The notes below the pieces were generated by a model. It saw only the letters and a program-made list of their open reading frames with translations. It was not told the origin of the DNA and made no database searches. Position numbers and translations under genes: made by a program. Positions 9,380 to 30,818 of a DNA stretch of 54,685 nt are shown here, in pieces. The DNA lies in assembly GCA_030019475.1 (NCBI GenBank), contig JASEER010000013.1, positions 1 through 54,685 of the forward strand, written 5' to 3'. How positions within the stretch are numbered: position 1 is the first letter of the stretch; each line of letters begins with the position of its first letter. Source of the stretch: Thermoanaerobacterales bacterium. GTDB taxonomy: Bacteria; Bacillota; Desulfotomaculia; Desulfotomaculales; JASEER01.

Positions 9380-9522
9380 ATTGAACCCCCCGCAAACAAG
9401 ATACGTTAGTATATTCAGCCGCCCCGTAATGTGCCCTCCGGCCCGGGCAGTCACCAAAGGCCATCCCTCGACATACCCTGTTAGCAAAAACAGGAAGAAA
9501 GGAAAGGGAGGTGAGTGGCCCG

Positions 9523-10551
9523 GTGGAACGCTATCGCCAGGTGATCCGGGACCACCGCGCGCGCCTATTGCGCCTGCCGAACGTCGTGGGCGTCGGTCTC
9601 GGTTACAAGCGTCTCCGCGGCGAGGAAACCAGGGAGCCGGCCATCGTCGTTTTCGTTGCGGAAAAAGTACCGGAGGGCGGGCTGCCGCGGGCCTGGCGTG
9701 TTCCGCGGCGGATCAACGGGCTGCCCACGGACGTCGTCTATATCGGGCGGGTGCGCCTGCTGGCCGAGCAGGTCGCGCGCATGCGCCCGGCCCAGCCGGG
9801 AGTAAGCATCGGCCACTACCAGATCTCGGCCGGGACCTTCGGCGCCCTGGTTTATGACGCCCGCTCCGGCGCGCCCCTGATCCTTTCCAACAACCACGTC
9901 CTGGCCAATCAGTCCAACGGCAGGGACGGCCGTGCCAGGGAGGGCGACCCTATCCTGCAGCCGGGACCCTATGACGGCGGGATCGAGGGCCGGGATACCA
10001 TTGCCCGTCTCGAACGCTTCGCCCCCCTGCACTACAGCGCGGAGCAGGCCACGTGCCCGGCGGCGGCCCGTTTCGAGAGCGTTGTCAACTCGCTGATCCG
10101 TACCTACCGCCCGAGTTACTTCGTGAAGGTTTACAAGGAAATGGCGGTGCCCAATATGATCGACGCCGCCGTCGCCCGTCCGGTGGACGACGGCGCGGTC
10201 ACGGACGAAATCCTCGGCCTCGGCCGGGTGAAAGGGGTGGCAACCCCGGAGCTGGGGGCCTCGGTACGCAAGAGCGGCCGGACCAGCGGTCTGACCGGCG
10301 GCGTCATCACCTATGTCGACGCCACGGTTGCGGTACAGTTGGGCGAGAACCGGTTAGCGGTTTTCGAGGACCAGATCATGATGGGGCCGATGAGTCAGCC
10401 CGGCGACAGCGGCTCGTTGATTGTCGACGACCAGATGAGGGCCGTCGGGCTGCTCTTCGCCGGGTCCACGGAAACCACCATCGCCAACCGCATCGACAAC
10501 GTTACCAGGCTCCTCGGCATCACCTTTGGGGCCCCTAAAGAGGAGGTGTAA
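9523..10551 (+). CDS. Trypsin-like serine protease (Nal1-type/FKBP-like NNHVLA-GDSGS protein)
   Basis: A 342-residue protein with a chymotrypsin-fold catalytic pattern. The His is in LILSNNHVLAN (about residue 125), a candidate Asp is in MIDAAVARP (about 214), and the Ser is in SQPGDSGSLIV (about 296). The first 80 residues (LPNVVGVGLGYK, PAIVVFVAEKVP) form a small alpha/beta module commonly fused to this domain in bacteria. No signal peptide is visible, so it is probably intracellular. I chose GTG 9523, which has a full GGAGGTGA site 8 bases upstream. GTG 9511 lies inside that site. A small gene follows after 2 bases, suggesting a partner. Substrates are unknown. Confidence 0.82.
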   Translation: MERYRQVIRDHRARLLRLPNVVGVGLGYKRLRGEETREPAIVVFVAEKVPEGGLPRAWRVPRRINGLPTDVVYIGRVRLLAEQVARMRPAQPGVSIGHYQISAGTFGALVYDARSGAPLILSNNHVLANQSNGRDGRAREGDPILQPGPYDGGIEGRDTIARLERFAPLHYSAEQATCPAAARFESVVNSLIRTYRPSYFVKVYKEMAVPNMIDAAVARPVDDGAVTDEILGLGRVKGVATPELGASVRKSGRTSGLTGGVITYVDATVAVQLGENRLAVFEDQIMMGPMSQPGDSGSLIVDDQMRAVGLLFAGSTETTIANRIDNVTRLLGITFGAPKEEV

Positions 10552-10899: not shown

Positions 10900-12522
10900 T
10901 TAACCGAGCCCGCCCTGGCAGATCCTGAGGACGGTACCGACCTGCAGGTTGGTCGGGACGATGCCCGGGTTCAGCTCCTGGATCGAGGCCACGGTGGTCC
11001 TGAAGCGGGCGGCGATGCTGCCCAGAGTGTCGCCGGGCTGGACCGTGTACGTCACCAGGGTGGTCCCGGGCGGACATACGGTGGGCACCGGAGCCACTTC
11101 CTCGGGGCAGAGGAAGAGCGTCGGCTGCACGATGCGGGTGACCTTGACCGTGACCTTCAGCACCACGTCGACCTTGATGTCATGGTCGGAGAGGCTGCAC
11201 TCCGCGAACTCGACGCTGACATTGACGGTTACGGTGTCGTTTTCCCTGATGTCGTTCTCAAACTGGACGAAGGTCGTGAAGGGGATGGTGGCCTCCACCG
11301 CGTGCACCGGCTGGCTCGGCTTGTCGGCGACGTAAATGGCTTTGACATCAATCTCACCGCGGACGATTACCTTGTCGGCCGCCGGCAGGAGTTCGGTCTC
11401 CGTGACGCGGGTCTCGATGACTTCGCATTCCAGGGCCTTCTGGGCCGGCGGCTTCTGCGGCGGGATCTCGATGATGTCGCTGATCACGACCTGCGTCATC
11501 CGCTGGCCGACCACCAGGTCGCTGCGGATCCTGACCTCCTGGCCGTCCGGGAACTCGGTAACGACCATGACCTCGATGTTCCGGGTGACCGAAGCCCGGA
11601 TCTGCAGGACGGCGCTGATGGAGATGGAGCACTTGCCCTTCTCGCGCGCGGTGACGTCCTCGATCCTCACCATCACGTCAACGATGTCATCAGGTTGGAC
11701 GGGCTCGTCGAGTTCCACGAACTGCGTGAACGGGATCTCGACGCGCACATGGTGCACCGGCTGGTCGCCTTCCCAGGTCTTGGCGACATAGATTACCTGA
11801 ACCGTCAGGACTCCTTCGACGACGACCTTACGGTCGCTGATGATCTCGGTCTGCGTGACCTCCACCTCGGCGATAACGTCAATCACCTGCTCCGGACACG
11901 GCTTGACGCCCGCAGTGATTTCCTTGACGTCCACCTGGTCGCTGATGACCACCTGGCGTGAGCCGAAGGCCACCACCTGTTCGAGGCTGATTTCCTCTCT
12001 CTCTGCCCCCGGCGCGTTGGTCAGGATGTTCAGCGTCTCGGTGACCGTGACCTTGACGAAGACCCGGATGATAATGGTGACGGTGATCTGCCGCTTGCCC
12101 TTCTCAACGCAGTCGTCGCAGTGGTGGCGGGTCTGGTTCATCTTCAGGTGGGCCTTGCAGTCTTCGACCTTCAGGTCCACGAAGACGTCGGCGTCCTCCC
12201 CGGCCTGCAGGCCCGGGATGTCGAAGGCCTGCGTGAAAGCCAGCTCGCCTTGGACGGCGTGCACCGGCTGGCTGCCCTCCGGCATGGCGGCCACGTAGAT
12301 CACCTTGACCTCGGCCAAGCCCTGGACGATCACCTTGTTGCGCAGGATCTCGGTACCCGTGACCCTGGCCTTGGCGTTGCACTTGATGATCTGCTCGACC
12401 GGCGGCTTTTGGGCCGGCACCGTGATCGTGCCCCGCACCGCGGCCTGCTGGGTACCCTCGCCGAGCACCCGCCGGACGCGGAACTCCTGGCATTCGACCT
12501 GCTGCCTTGTATACCGGCTCAA
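10900..12522 (-). CDS. DUF3794 (three repeats) plus LysM protein, SipL/spore-coat type
   Basis: About 540 residues, with three DUF3794 repeats at roughly 15-175, 185-345 and 350-480. Each starts with a conserved strand run (for example VVISDQVDVKEI, VVISDIIEIPPQKP) and contains a QPVH(A/H)V segment. A C-terminal LysM domain follows (YTVQPGDTLGSIAARF, LNPGI). SipL of Clostridioides has DUF3794-type and LysM parts and links SpoIVA to the engulfing membrane during spore coat assembly, so a spore-envelope role is likely. I chose TTG 12522, which has GGGGG 8 bases upstream. ATG 12543 lacks a site. A sigma-E/K-like -10 lies 30 bases upstream. Confidence 0.85.
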   Translation of the reverse strand: MSRYTRQQVECQEFRVRRVLGEGTQQAAVRGTITVPAQKPPVEQIIKCNAKARVTGTEILRNKVIVQGLAEVKVIYVAAMPEGSQPVHAVQGELAFTQAFDIPGLQAGEDADVFVDLKVEDCKAHLKMNQTRHHCDDCVEKGKRQITVTIIIRVFVKVTVTETLNILTNAPGAEREEISLEQVVAFGSRQVVISDQVDVKEITAGVKPCPEQVIDVIAEVEVTQTEIISDRKVVVEGVLTVQVIYVAKTWEGDQPVHHVRVEIPFTQFVELDEPVQPDDIVDVMVRIEDVTAREKGKCSISISAVLQIRASVTRNIEVMVVTEFPDGQEVRIRSDLVVGQRMTQVVISDIIEIPPQKPPAQKALECEVIETRVTETELLPAADKVIVRGEIDVKAIYVADKPSQPVHAVEATIPFTTFVQFENDIRENDTVTVNVSVEFAECSLSDHDIKVDVVLKVTVKVTRIVQPTLFLCPEEVAPVPTVCPPGTTLVTYTVQPGDTLGSIAARFRTTVASIQELNPGIVPTNLQVGTVLRICQGGLG

Positions 12523-12552
12523 AAAAATTCCCCCTTTCGGCATAGGTTGCTA

Positions 12553-14118: not shown

Positions 14119-14511
14119 CTACGGCAACGCCAAATCCCCCGGCTTATAGATCACCACTCCCAGCCCGTCGGTGATCACCAGGTTGTGCGGTTCCGGTCCC
14201 CTGCCGTCGACGAAACAGGTCAGGATGAACATCTTCTTGGCGTAATAGGCCTTCCGGAAGCGGTGAAGCAGGAGTTCATCGAGGTTTGGCATCTCGGCCA
14301 CCAGCTCCTGCCCGTTGAAGACCTGCAGAGTATACCGGCCGTCTCCCTGGCGCTGGAAATTGACGTGCACCCGGGCCTGCCCGTCTTCGGCGTATTCCGA
14401 CACCCGCGCCACCAGCTTTTTTACCTCCTCGAGGGCCTGTTCCTTTTGCAGATAGCGGGTGCCGATCACAGGAACCTCATTGATGACCGTAAGGACAACC
14501 TCTCCGTTCAT
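14119..14511 (-). CDS. Hypothetical protein
   Basis: A 130-residue, probably globular alpha/beta protein (MNGEVVLTVINEVPVIGTRY, ARVHVNFQRQGDGRYTLQVF, LHRFRKAYYAKKMFILTCF, HNLVITDGLGVVIY). No membrane segment and no motif I recognise. ATG 14511 has AGGAGAG 5-6 bases upstream. The minus-strand sequence CATATACTA, a CATANNNTA match like that ahead of the DUF3794 gene, lies about 20 bases before the start, which hints at sporulation control. It is divergent from a 41-residue reading frame. Confidence 0.65.
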   Translation of the reverse strand: MNGEVVLTVINEVPVIGTRYLQKEQALEEVKKLVARVSEYAEDGQARVHVNFQRQGDGRYTLQVFNGQELVAEMPNLDELLLHRFRKAYYAKKMFILTCFVDGRGPEPHNLVITDGLGVVIYKPGDLALP

Positions 14512-14564
14512 AGGCACTCTCCTTTTTTTGCTAGTATATGACATAAAAAGGAAGGGTGCCCGTA

Positions 14565-14695: not shown

Positions 14696-14720
14696 AACCG
14701 CCAGGCGTTGCCTGGCGGTT
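14696..14720. terminator. Hairpin after the small reading frame
   Basis: AACCGCCAGGC (14696-14706) and GCCTGGCGGTT (14710-14720) form a perfect 11-base stem with a 3-base loop, followed by TAGTATT. A second stem, TTAGGGG/CCCCTAA (14725-14744), follows at once and precedes the stop of the convergent cysteine-rich gene. Either could end transcription in both directions. Confidence 0.7.
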
Positions 14721-14747: not shown

Positions 14748-14954
14748 TCATGAATCGTCATCATCGTGGATCTTGCAGAATTCCCAATCTTCATGCGCAC
14801 AGTTGTTAATGGTCGTGCATTTCGTGAAAATGACATAAATAACCTTCTTAACGCAGCAGCATTCATCGTCCAAACAAGGTTTGCCCCTACCCGCTGCACC
14901 CGCAGCTTCTCTGACCGCCTCAAGTACGGCTTTGAGTTGATCCTCGCTAACCAT
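14748..14954 (-). CDS. Cysteine-rich small protein, tandem copy 1
   Basis: A 68-residue protein: an N-terminal helix MVSEDQLKAVLEAVREAAG, then ECCCVKKVIYVIFTKC and TINNCAHEDWEFCK, with an Asp-rich tail. The six-Cys pattern CCC-x11-C-x5-C-x7-C is shared exactly with the next two genes. ATG 14954 has GGGGAGG 7 bases upstream. It is the last and most diverged of three paralogues in a row. The short predicted helix followed by a dense Cys block resembles a leader-core layout, but no modifying enzyme is adjacent. The function is unknown; spore surface is a guess from the neighbourhood. Confidence 0.75.
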   Translation of the reverse strand: MVSEDQLKAVLEAVREAAGAAGRGKPCLDDECCCVKKVIYVIFTKCTTINNCAHEDWEFCKIHDDDDS

Positions 14955-14987
14955 GGCTATACCTCCCCTTCCGTTTGCGTACATGCA

Positions 14988-15239
14988 CTAGTCCACTTTA
15001 CAGAATATCCAATCTTCATGCGCACAGTTGTTGATCGTCAGGCAATTGGTAAATACCACGTAGATAACCCACTCAACACAGCAGCATTCTTCATCCTCGG
15101 TGTCTCCGTTCGCTTCCCCGGGCGTCCGGCCGGCAGCGTTTTTGGTCAGCGTCCCGCTCTTCATCTCATCCATACGTGACCCTCCTTCTTTGCCAGTAAC
15201 CGCGTCAAGTGCGGCTTTGATTTGCTCCTTACTGACCAT
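14988..15239 (-). CDS. Cysteine-rich small protein, tandem copy 2
   Basis: An 83-residue paralogue: MVSKEQIKAALDAVTGKEGG matches the start of copy 1, then an inserted spacer MDEMKSGTLTKNAAGRTPGE, then ECCCVEWVIYVVFTNC and TINNCAHEDWIFCKVD. An internal ATG at 15173 also has an AAGGAGGG site 7 bases upstream and gives a product aligned end to end with copy 3, so two starts are possible. GGGGGG precedes the 15239 start by 7 bases. It is 33 bases upstream of copy 1. Confidence 0.75.
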   Translation of the reverse strand: MVSKEQIKAALDAVTGKEGGSRMDEMKSGTLTKNAAGRTPGEANGDTEDEECCCVEWVIYVVFTNCLTINNCAHEDWIFCKVD

Positions 15240-15271
15240 GGTCATGCCCCCCTTCTTTTAGCGTAGATGCA

Positions 15272-15457
15272 CTAGTCCACTTTACAGAATTTCCAATCTT
15301 CATGCGCACAGTTATTAATCGTCAGGCACTTGGTAAATACCACGTAGACAACCCGGTCAACGCAGCAGCATTCTTCATCCTTTGTGCCTCCGTTCGCTTC
15401 CCCGGGCGTCTGGCCGGCATCGCCTTCGATCAGCGTCCCGCTCTTCATCTCATCCAT
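15272..15457 (-). CDS. Cysteine-rich small protein, tandem copy 3
   Basis: A 61-residue paralogue, MDEMKSGTLIEGDAGQTPGE, then ECCCVDRVVYVVFTKC and TINNCAHEDWKFCKVD. It is nearly identical at the DNA level to the C-terminal part of copy 2, including the bases after the stop, so copies 2 and 3 come from a recent tandem duplication. The helical N-terminal part is missing; the upstream DNA still resembles that of copy 2 (ACTGG-x-AAA-x-AAGGAGGG) but no longer encodes it. It is the first gene of the three-gene run. Confidence 0.75.
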   Translation of the reverse strand: MDEMKSGTLIEGDAGQTPGEANGGTKDEECCCVDRVVYVVFTKCLTINNCAHEDWKFCKVD

Positions 15458-15558
15458 ACATAACCCTCCTTTTTTACCAGTGGCTTTACTGTATTACCAA
15501 GTTATGCTATCTGCATTCTATTGGTGCCGTTGTTACCAGCACCCCATAAAATTTTCAA

Positions 15559-15637: not shown

Positions 15638-16048
15638 TTAGGCAAGCTGGACGTTAAGCATCCGGTCCTGACACACCGTGACCGTGAACTCCACGTTCAG
15701 GACCGCGCCAATGGTCCCGTCCGTGAGGACGACGTCCGTCAAGGTCGGCGTATAGTCGACGATCGCCGGGACAGCCGGGCAGGGGTGAACACCCTCGGGC
15801 AAGGCTGCTGTTCCCGTGCCTTCGATATGGCAATAGTCATAGCCGGTGGCGAACTGGTATTCCAGCGAAAGGTGGTAGGAGAACTCAATCTGCGGATTCT
15901 CACCGAATATCGCCTCGGCACCGGTTATTACCACATGGAACTCATCCCCCAGGGCCACCGGTGCAAACTGGGGCGAACCGGTGATCGTATCGGAAAAGGT
16001 GACCGTTTGTTCAGTAACCACGTTAGCGCAAATCAATGCGCTGGCCAT
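15638..16048 (-). CDS. Hypothetical beta-rich protein
   Basis: A 136-residue protein of unknown function starting MASALICANVVTEQTVTF. Alternating hydrophobic strands (DEFHVVITGAEAIFG, IEFSYHLSLEYQFA, AVLNVEFTVTVCQDRMLNV) suggest a beta sandwich reminiscent of single DUF3794-like repeats, although I cannot confirm the family. ATG 16048 has AGGAGGT 8 bases upstream. The longer in-frame extension to 16114 lacks a site. Four cysteines are present. It lies between a zinc-ribbon gene and the cysteine-rich run. Confidence 0.65.
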   Translation of the reverse strand: MASALICANVVTEQTVTFSDTITGSPQFAPVALGDEFHVVITGAEAIFGENPQIEFSYHLSLEYQFATGYDYCHIEGTGTAALPEGVHPCPAVPAIVDYTPTLTDVVLTDGTIGAVLNVEFTVTVCQDRMLNVQLA

Positions 16049-16152
16049 ACCTTCCTGACCTCCTTTTAGTCTATTTTCCGATCCATGGTATGCCGGGGTA
16101 TCTTTGTTGGTCACTGTCGATCCATCCCTGGCGAACTGCCGACCATATCGCC

Positions 16153-16535: not shown

Positions 16536-17393
16536 TCAGTAAGCCGAGCGCGGCGCCCCTATGCGGTGAAGGCCCCGCGTCTCAAGACCCCCGATTCCGG
16601 GGTAGCCGGTGATCGTCGCTTCAATGACTTCCTTTAAGCCGATGGACCGGTGCACCGGCGTGTAAGCCAGTTTTTCCACTATGAACACCGGGTCGAAGGC
16701 ATGGATCAGCACCCGCTCCGGCGAACTGGCGAAGTTCGCCCCCGCTTCCAGGATGGCCTCGTAGTAGGACTGGCAGGCACCGGCGAAGATCACCAGGTCG
16801 TCGAGGTTTTTTTCAAACCGCCGCGCCTCGCGCACCGCCTCCACGAAGTGGCGGGAGTTGCGGTAGTTATCCATGTTGCGGAAATCGGTCTTCCCCTTAG
16901 TGTAGGCGTCGTGGCCGGTCAGGACCAGGATGTTGGGACGGTGCTTCTCCAGCAGTCCGTACACTTCCTTGGGCTGTTTGTTCTCCGGGATGTGGTAGCC
17001 GTCGTGCGGAACACCCAGCTGCTTGTAGGTGGTCATGCATAGTTCCAGGTAATCAGGGTCCCCGTCCAGGTGAAGGACCTGCCCCGGAACGTCAAAGGTC
17101 GCCACGTCCTGCCGCGAAAGGCTGCGTATCTGTTCCTGCTCCCGCCTTTCAAAGCAGCGCTTGATCCTCTCACCCTGGTTGACCATGGTCTCCCGCCAGT
17201 GCGCGGCCACCACGTCCGGCGGCAGCTTTTCGAGGTCGTCGAGCGGTGCGTCGGCGATCAGGCGGACCAACAGGCCGCATAAAACGGCCATCACCCGGCC
17301 GTCGTCGTTCCGGTACAGTTCACGGACCTTAAAGTAAAGGTCCTTGTTATATGATTTACGGCCCACGATATCCCCGACCGCGATCTCGGGCAC
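16536..17393 (-). CDS. yabG: Sporulation-specific protease
   Basis: YabG is a sporulation peptidase that trims coat proteins (for example before transglutaminase cross-linking in Bacillus). The 285-residue length fits. Recognisable parts are the N-terminal IAVGDIVGRKSYNKDLYFKV, a central PNILVLTGHDAYTKGK with a candidate catalytic His, and VIFAGACQSYYEAILEAGAN with a candidate Cys. GTG 17393 has GGAGGAGGG 8 bases upstream. In Bacillus yabG lies next to rsmA/ksgA; here rsmA is 1.5 kb away with a glycosyltransferase and ykuK between, so the neighbourhood is partly kept. Confidence 0.95.
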   Translation of the reverse strand: MPEIAVGDIVGRKSYNKDLYFKVRELYRNDDGRVMAVLCGLLVRLIADAPLDDLEKLPPDVVAAHWRETMVNQGERIKRCFERREQEQIRSLSRQDVATFDVPGQVLHLDGDPDYLELCMTTYKQLGVPHDGYHIPENKQPKEVYGLLEKHRPNILVLTGHDAYTKGKTDFRNMDNYRNSRHFVEAVREARRFEKNLDDLVIFAGACQSYYEAILEAGANFASSPERVLIHAFDPVFIVEKLAYTPVHRSIGLKEVIEATITGYPGIGGLETRGLHRIGAPRSAY

Positions 17394-30563: not shown

Positions 30564-30818
30564 ATGAAATCGACAGGTATTGTGCGCAAAGTGGACGAGC
30601 TCGGCCGGGTGGTTATCCCGATAGAGCTGCGGCGGACTCTGGGCATCGAAGAAAAAGACGCCCTGGAAATTTACGTCGACAACGAGAAGATTATTCTCAA
30701 GAAATATGAGCCCGCCTGCGTCTTCTGCGGCAATGCCGCGGACGTCCAGCATTACCGCGGGAAGCTGGTATGCCGGGAATGCGCTGTGGCGATGTTCGAA
30801 AAGGCCAAGGCCATCTAG
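30564..30818 (+). CDS. abrB: AbrB/SpoVT-family transition-state regulator
   Basis: An 84-residue regulator. The N-terminal swapped-hairpin DNA-binding domain is MKSTGIVRKVDELGRVVIPI followed by ELRRTLGIEEKDALEIYV, nearly identical to Bacillus AbrB. The C-terminal part contains CVFCGN and CRECA, two CxxC pairs, as in some clostridial AbrB proteins. AbrB proteins act as transition-state repressors of sporulation and stationary-phase genes. GGGAGGGGA precedes the ATG. It is divergent from metG and ends at a strong terminator. Confidence 0.92.
   Translation: MKSTGIVRKVDELGRVVIPIELRRTLGIEEKDALEIYVDNEKIILKKYEPACVFCGNAADVQHYRGKLVCRECAVAMFEKAKAI

Follow-up and report, generated by a model that had tools for sequence, protein, structure and literature searches.

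The window analysed here is a stretch of 54,685 nt from a Thermoanaerobacterales bacterium (contig JASEER010000013.1), and its minus strand carries three small cysteine-rich genes in tandem, as the first-pass annotation of this DNA had claimed. The genes lie head-to-tail and are read in the order copy 3, copy 2, copy 1, with the following features.

15498 to 15527, minus strand: sigma-K-type promoter-like site, GCACC-N15-GCATAACTTG, agreeing with 11/12 consensus positions, 50 nt 5' of the copy 3 start
15464 to 15469, minus strand: ribosome-binding site of copy 3, GGAGGG, read from the sequence
15457 to 15272, minus strand: copy 3, first gene of the run, 61 residues with six cysteines, linker and core without the helix
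15239 to 14988, minus strand: copy 2, 83 residues with six cysteines, helix, 35-residue linker and core
15180 to 15187, minus strand: Shine-Dalgarno-like AAGGAGGG within copy 2, 6 nt 5' of an internal in-frame ATG (15173-15171)
14954 to 14748, minus strand: copy 1, 68 residues with seven cysteines, N-terminal helix (MVSEDQLKAVLEAV), short linker and core
14696 to 14720, minus strand: strong hairpin with a short U tract 3' of copy 1, from folding of a 66-nt stretch

The gaps between the genes were measured as 32 and 33 nt, the 32-33 bases given before, and each holds a good ribosome-binding site. Copy 2 has an alternative in-frame ATG at 15245, two codons upstream of the 15239 start. The whole 66-nt stretch at the copy 1 hairpin folds with -29.8 kcal/mol (z -4.1), and the hairpin, which was not flagged by a consensus terminator scan, is likely to mark the 3' end of the run. 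The reported cysteine arrangement CCC-x11-C-x5-C-x7-C and the stretch TINNCAHEDW were found exactly in all three copies, whereas the count of six cysteines each held for copies 2 and 3 but not for copy 1, which has a seventh (C27).

Copies 2 and 3 had been described as recent DNA duplicates in which the spacer that follows the stop is also shared, and the alignment agreed, with 212 of 238 positions (89%) identical over the genes and their trailing spacers. The homology begins 24 nt 5' of the copy 3 ATG, and the ribosome-binding site of copy 3, AAGGAGGG, therefore corresponds to the in-frame codons KEGGSR of copy 2. Thus the helical start ascribed to copies 1 and 2 is present, but copy 3 is not a copy simply lacking it. 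The internal Shine-Dalgarno and ATG region of copy 2 (15171-15191) matches the true start region of copy 3, suggesting either that copy 2 is a helix start fused on to a copy 3-like gene or that copy 3 has lost its start. The internal signals of copy 2 are possibly a relic of such a fusion, or they could give a second, shorter product; copy 2 may be translated from both starts into two products.

In line with the earlier failure to recognise the family, no Pfam, NCBIfam or PHROG model matched the window copies or their relatives, and no solved structure in the PDB matched a single copy or the family profile. A snake-venom phospholipase A2 was the best PDB match of a single copy (E 0.08, via a CCC-like motif); it was below threshold, disappeared with the family profile and was discarded as chance. 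Our literature searches gave no description of the family, and it appears to be undescribed, although proteins of its kind, cysteine-rich, lineage-specific and on the spore surface, have been described before and are predicted to occur widely (PMC7333573).

Profile searches, the iterative approach proposed in the first-pass annotation, recovered a family of patchy distribution in the Bacillota, where it occurs in several lineages (Desulforudis/Desulfopertinax among them). Among 150 relatives searched, five genomes of family f6 had a pair each, and f7 and f14 had single genes. Within the class, the profile built from the first members detected the family in 18 of 113 genomes, one of them (G031) with a short fragment containing a stop only, and in the phylum sample in 7 of 398 genomes; further sets came from around G489 (5/63) and G338 (12/154). 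Weak matches in G001, G029, G048, G056, G058, G059, G069, G074 and G087 were partial, had stops or lay in other frames, and were rejected as chance. A single-sequence scan of genome contigs gave zero loci, and an alignment-based pattern scan of an 84,980-species collection, the reach of which is close relatives only, gave eight, all in Bacillota MAGs (Ca. Fermentithermobacillaceae, Desulforudis sp., Ca. Desulfopertinax cowenii and two further MAGs). Zero relatives were found in a plasmid collection or in viral contigs, which gives no indication that the gene is mobile or phage-borne. The genome of the window itself has exactly three family genes, all in the run. Since these three are the only ones there, homologues occur in many genomes and orthologue dN/dS is mostly 0.07-0.5, the trio is not a chance set of reading frames; the dN/dS range indicates maintained proteins under purifying selection. 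The value for copies 2 and 3 (0.82) reflects a recent duplication and is uninformative. In phylogenetic trees the window trio (98/94), the G489 trio (100/100) and the G109 pair (100/100) were separate, lineage-specific duplications.

Alignment of 46 members (48-90 residues, 4-10 cysteines, mean cysteine content 8.6%) showed that Cys32 is invariant, followed by Pro35 and Cys54 (43/46 each), Trp57 (39/46) and Cys46 (38/46), and that the second and third cysteines of CCC are absent from about half of the members. His54 together with Cys52, in place of the usual Cys54 and Gly52, occurs in the three window copies only, and TINNCAHEDW is thus a genome-private version of a family-wide INNGAC-x-DW. 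Exchange of cysteine for histidine is typical of metal sites, and among the rival explanations the most serious is for this reason that the genes encode no cross-linked brick but a small Zn- or Fe-binding protein, located in the spore or in the mother cell. It is nevertheless an improbable one, because just one cysteine, Cys32, is invariant and just one more, Cys54, comes close to it, loss of two CCC cysteines in about half of the family would not be compatible with a four-ligand site, and neither Pfam nor NCBIfam gave a match to a metal-protein family. A modified peptide or a germination partner, discussed below, is less likely still.

The run had been placed near spore-envelope genes, and the annotated surroundings bear this out, as it lies between yabG and a SPOCS/LysM gene.

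16536 to 17393, minus strand: yabG, sporulation signature protease and syntenic upstream gene (Pfam PF05582, E 2.9e-117; TIGR02855)
15638 to 16048, minus strand: neighbour of an uncharacterised family, sigma-K-like promoter at 16084-16112
14119 to 14511, minus strand: conserved neighbour of an uncharacterised family, sigma-K-like promoter at 14532-14558, also adjoining the f6 pair
10900 to 12543, minus strand: SPOCS and LysM protein, SipL-like, syntenic downstream gene (Pfam PF12673, E 3.7e-53)

Cysteine-rich genes occupy this same yabG-to-SPOCS/LysM position in f1 and f6, with two copies being placed there in Desulforudis/Desulfopertinax. In f6 the order is yabG, a 14119-like gene, the two cysteine-rich genes, a 13764-like gene in three of five genomes, SCP and SPOCS. 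The published order in Clostridioides difficile, yabG-veg-sipL (PMC10681294), is matched by that of the window; unlike it, the window and f6 have the cysteine-rich run, uncharacterised genes and an SCP/CAP protein in between. In G583 a tandem cysteine-rich pair is followed directly by three YheC/D-type ATP-grasp genes (L122:2526-6446), and at approximately nine further lineage loci the surroundings are neutral. Which neighbours count as spore-related was decided after the neighbourhoods had been looked at, and the context is therefore supporting rather than decisive.

Members also adjoin GerA germination operons in two separate genera, at 0.8-3.2 kb, a proximity expected by chance at roughly 1% per lineage (a rough estimate from GerA counts). 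This raised a small germinant-receptor partner or other germination factor as an explanation. We regard it as very unlikely, as coat morphogenesis genes, not GerA, surround the members in the window and in f6, and neither a signal peptide nor a membrane segment is evident. Germinant receptors, moreover, are forespore (sigma-G) products, and sigma-G gave a null result here (see below).

Members with a known role in non-spore formers, which the first-pass annotation had named as evidence that would count against its reading, were not encountered in the data available: of 25 member genomes, 23 had Spo0A and the remaining two are incomplete assemblies (73% and 89% complete), and GerA was present in all 25. 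Many bacteria of these groups form spores, and so presence in spore formers is in itself weak evidence. YabG was found in all Desulfotomaculales-like members except G110 (with a fragment only in G112) and was absent from the other member groups. The CotY/CotZ family PF10612 was detected in 0 of 28 member genomes, with a positive B. subtilis control.

Coat and exosporium proteins are made in the late mother cell, and we scored for sigma-factor motifs in the 110 nt that precede the first gene, taking 17 lineages or loci. With the published B. subtilis consensuses (PMC3416734), sigma-K reached z=8.8 over dinucleotide shuffles, a value attained by 0 of 300 shuffles. The scores for sigma-E (z=2.8) and sigma-A (z=3.5) were lower, that of sigma-A probably reflecting composition, and sigma-F (z=0.5) and sigma-G (z=0.0) were null, so that control by either of the latter was rejected. 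In a simpler model CATANNNTA ranked first of 60 letter permutations. The KCACM and GCATANNNTA elements by which sigma-K regulon promoters are recognised were found at the copy 3 site, whose 11/12 score was equalled in 2 of 300 shuffles, and score above shuffles for the 17 loci taken together. In the 54.7 kb of the window a stringent sigma-K pattern was matched at five sites, compared with 2.1 in shuffles, and four of the five lie directly 5' of a start: that of the run, those of its two neighbours (14511 and 16048) and that of a peptidase-like gene (9511). No site for the run came out of a generic sigma-70 scan. Of all the evidence, the sigma-K signature is the strongest single line pointing to expression in the late mother cell.

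Near-perfect sigma-K-type promoters, CAC-N15-CATATACTA and GAC-N17-CATACCATG, precede the flanking uncharacterised genes 14119-14511 and 15638-16048, which are candidates for further spore-envelope families. At 9452-10551 the window encodes a 346-residue protein, read as trypsin-like from its GDSGSL motif alone, with a sigma-K-like site 30 nt before the GTG start.

The promoter type, which is specific to sporulation, also bears on the 'peptide-type product' offered earlier as an alternative, a sporulation-associated RiPP or bacteriocin-type peptide in which the helix would be the leader and the cysteine-rich tail the modified core. A helical start before a cysteine-rich tail, small size and tandem paralogues would fit such a peptide. 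Sigma-K, however, is not its typical driver, copy 3 has no leader, and the C-terminal core is the most strongly conserved part across lineages. Furthermore, when the neighbourhoods were read (partly with profiles), no genes for modification, protease-transporters, immunity or export were recognised next to a member. We consider this the least probable of the explanations.

The existence of the genes and of the family, its conservation, its synteny and its promoter signature are established. A cysteine content of 8.6%, the sigma-K signature, tandem duplication and restriction to spore formers together match published spore-surface proteins, and on this basis we think it quite probable that the trio encodes small, sigma-K-dependent coat or exosporium proteins made in the mother cell and cross-linked as bricks by disulfide bonds. 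The spore-surface reading of the first-pass annotation has therefore gained support, from the confinement to spore-former genomes, the sigma-K-type promoters and spore-envelope or germination neighbours in four separate settings; its 'disulfide-linked' part we infer from cysteine content and analogy. Size was counted against this reading, as 61-83 residues is far below CotY (161 residues) or CdeC (405 residues).

Transcription, location and chemistry of the trio products are deduced from the genes, and we propose the following course. The mother cell would transcribe the run late in sporulation from the motif-supported sigma-K promoter 5' of copy 3. The N-terminal helix of copies 1 and 2 probably serves recruitment or oligomerisation, and the C-terminal core, Cys-Cys-Cys, a hydrophobic strand, Cys, INN-GAC-x-DW and Cys, may form a small sheet-like brick, for which the two AlphaFold models obtained (AF2; pLDDT 61 and 59, both poor) are weak guides. 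Such bricks would pack on to the forespore surface, where neighbouring cysteines could oxidise to intermolecular disulfides that lock the coat or exosporium layer, by analogy with what is proposed for CotY/ExsY and CsxA. Repeated lineage-specific tandem duplication would supply dosage and brick variants. A bolder and rather doubtful extension is that an unrelated, minimal disulfide brick of ~60-80 residues forms the principal lattice of the coat or exosporium in several Bacillota lineages without CotY/CotZ, by which we mean Desulfotomaculales-like lineages and Fermentithermobacillaceae; tandem paralogues would build a hetero-lattice, and copy 2 would yield two nested-start products.

The closest parallels are by kind. 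CotY/CotZ/ExsY of the Bacillus crust and exosporium (PF10612) are likewise cysteine-rich mother-cell spore-surface proteins with conserved cysteines, and CotY forms disulfide-locked lattices (PMC4950064). However, PF10612 matched neither the window copies at E<=1 nor the relatives at E<=10, and CotY has 15 cysteines in its 161 residues compared with the 4-10 in 48-90 residues here. The C. difficile exosporium proteins CdeC (9% cysteine) and CdeM (8.7%) are both controlled by sigma-K (PMC6101409), and a cysteine content of ~9% together with a sigma-K motif is found here too, a likeness not of descent. CdeC (405 residues) and CdeM (161 residues) differ in having NPC, CHK or CNCC repeats, none of which occurs in the members, in being monocistronic rather than in tandem runs, and in their distribution, CdeC being limited to Peptostreptococcaceae and relatives and CdeM to C. 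difficile. CsxA, which forms the exosporium lattice of Clostridium sporogenes/botulinum, is cysteine-rich and often near BclA-like genes (PMC7333573), and the member in G041 similarly has a BclA_C gene ~1 kb away; CsxA has 25 cysteines, and the members showed neither a library match nor any resemblance to it.

The sigma-K regulon has almost no genes common across spore formers, and spore-surface proteins diverge fast (PMC10681294), with unrelated cysteine-rich proteins thought to fill the same role in different lineages (PMC7333573). For deep-branching and mostly uncultured Bacillota, the deep-subsurface Desulforudis lineage among them, the present family is a candidate for that role which can be searched for, and its promoter and conserved cysteine core are directly testable.

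Other arrangements were seen among the relatives. In Pelotomaculum-like f7 genomes a longer paralogue rich in helix (113-139 residues) comes after the cysteine-rich gene, and then a protein of ~420-490 residues with weak BNR/beta-propeller lectin matches (L086:7359-8627, L036:4935-6329, L037:140-1621 and L038:9796-11235), possibly a three-gene spore-surface module. A divergent branch in f145 (CCCPRKVKFFIFGNTWINNYN) has runs of three small genes with a larger uncharacterised protein upstream (L091:5793-7061, L126:6093-7352 and L127:5840-7144). In genus g31 the cysteine-rich gene has in its vicinity a regulator of the AbrB/MazE fold that carries a zinc-ribbon-like tail (L037:2528-2782, L036:7274-7552 and L038:6603-6887); in L037 and L038 the regulator lies between the cysteine-rich gene and GerA, and a close homologue of this regulator is present in the window at 30564-30818.
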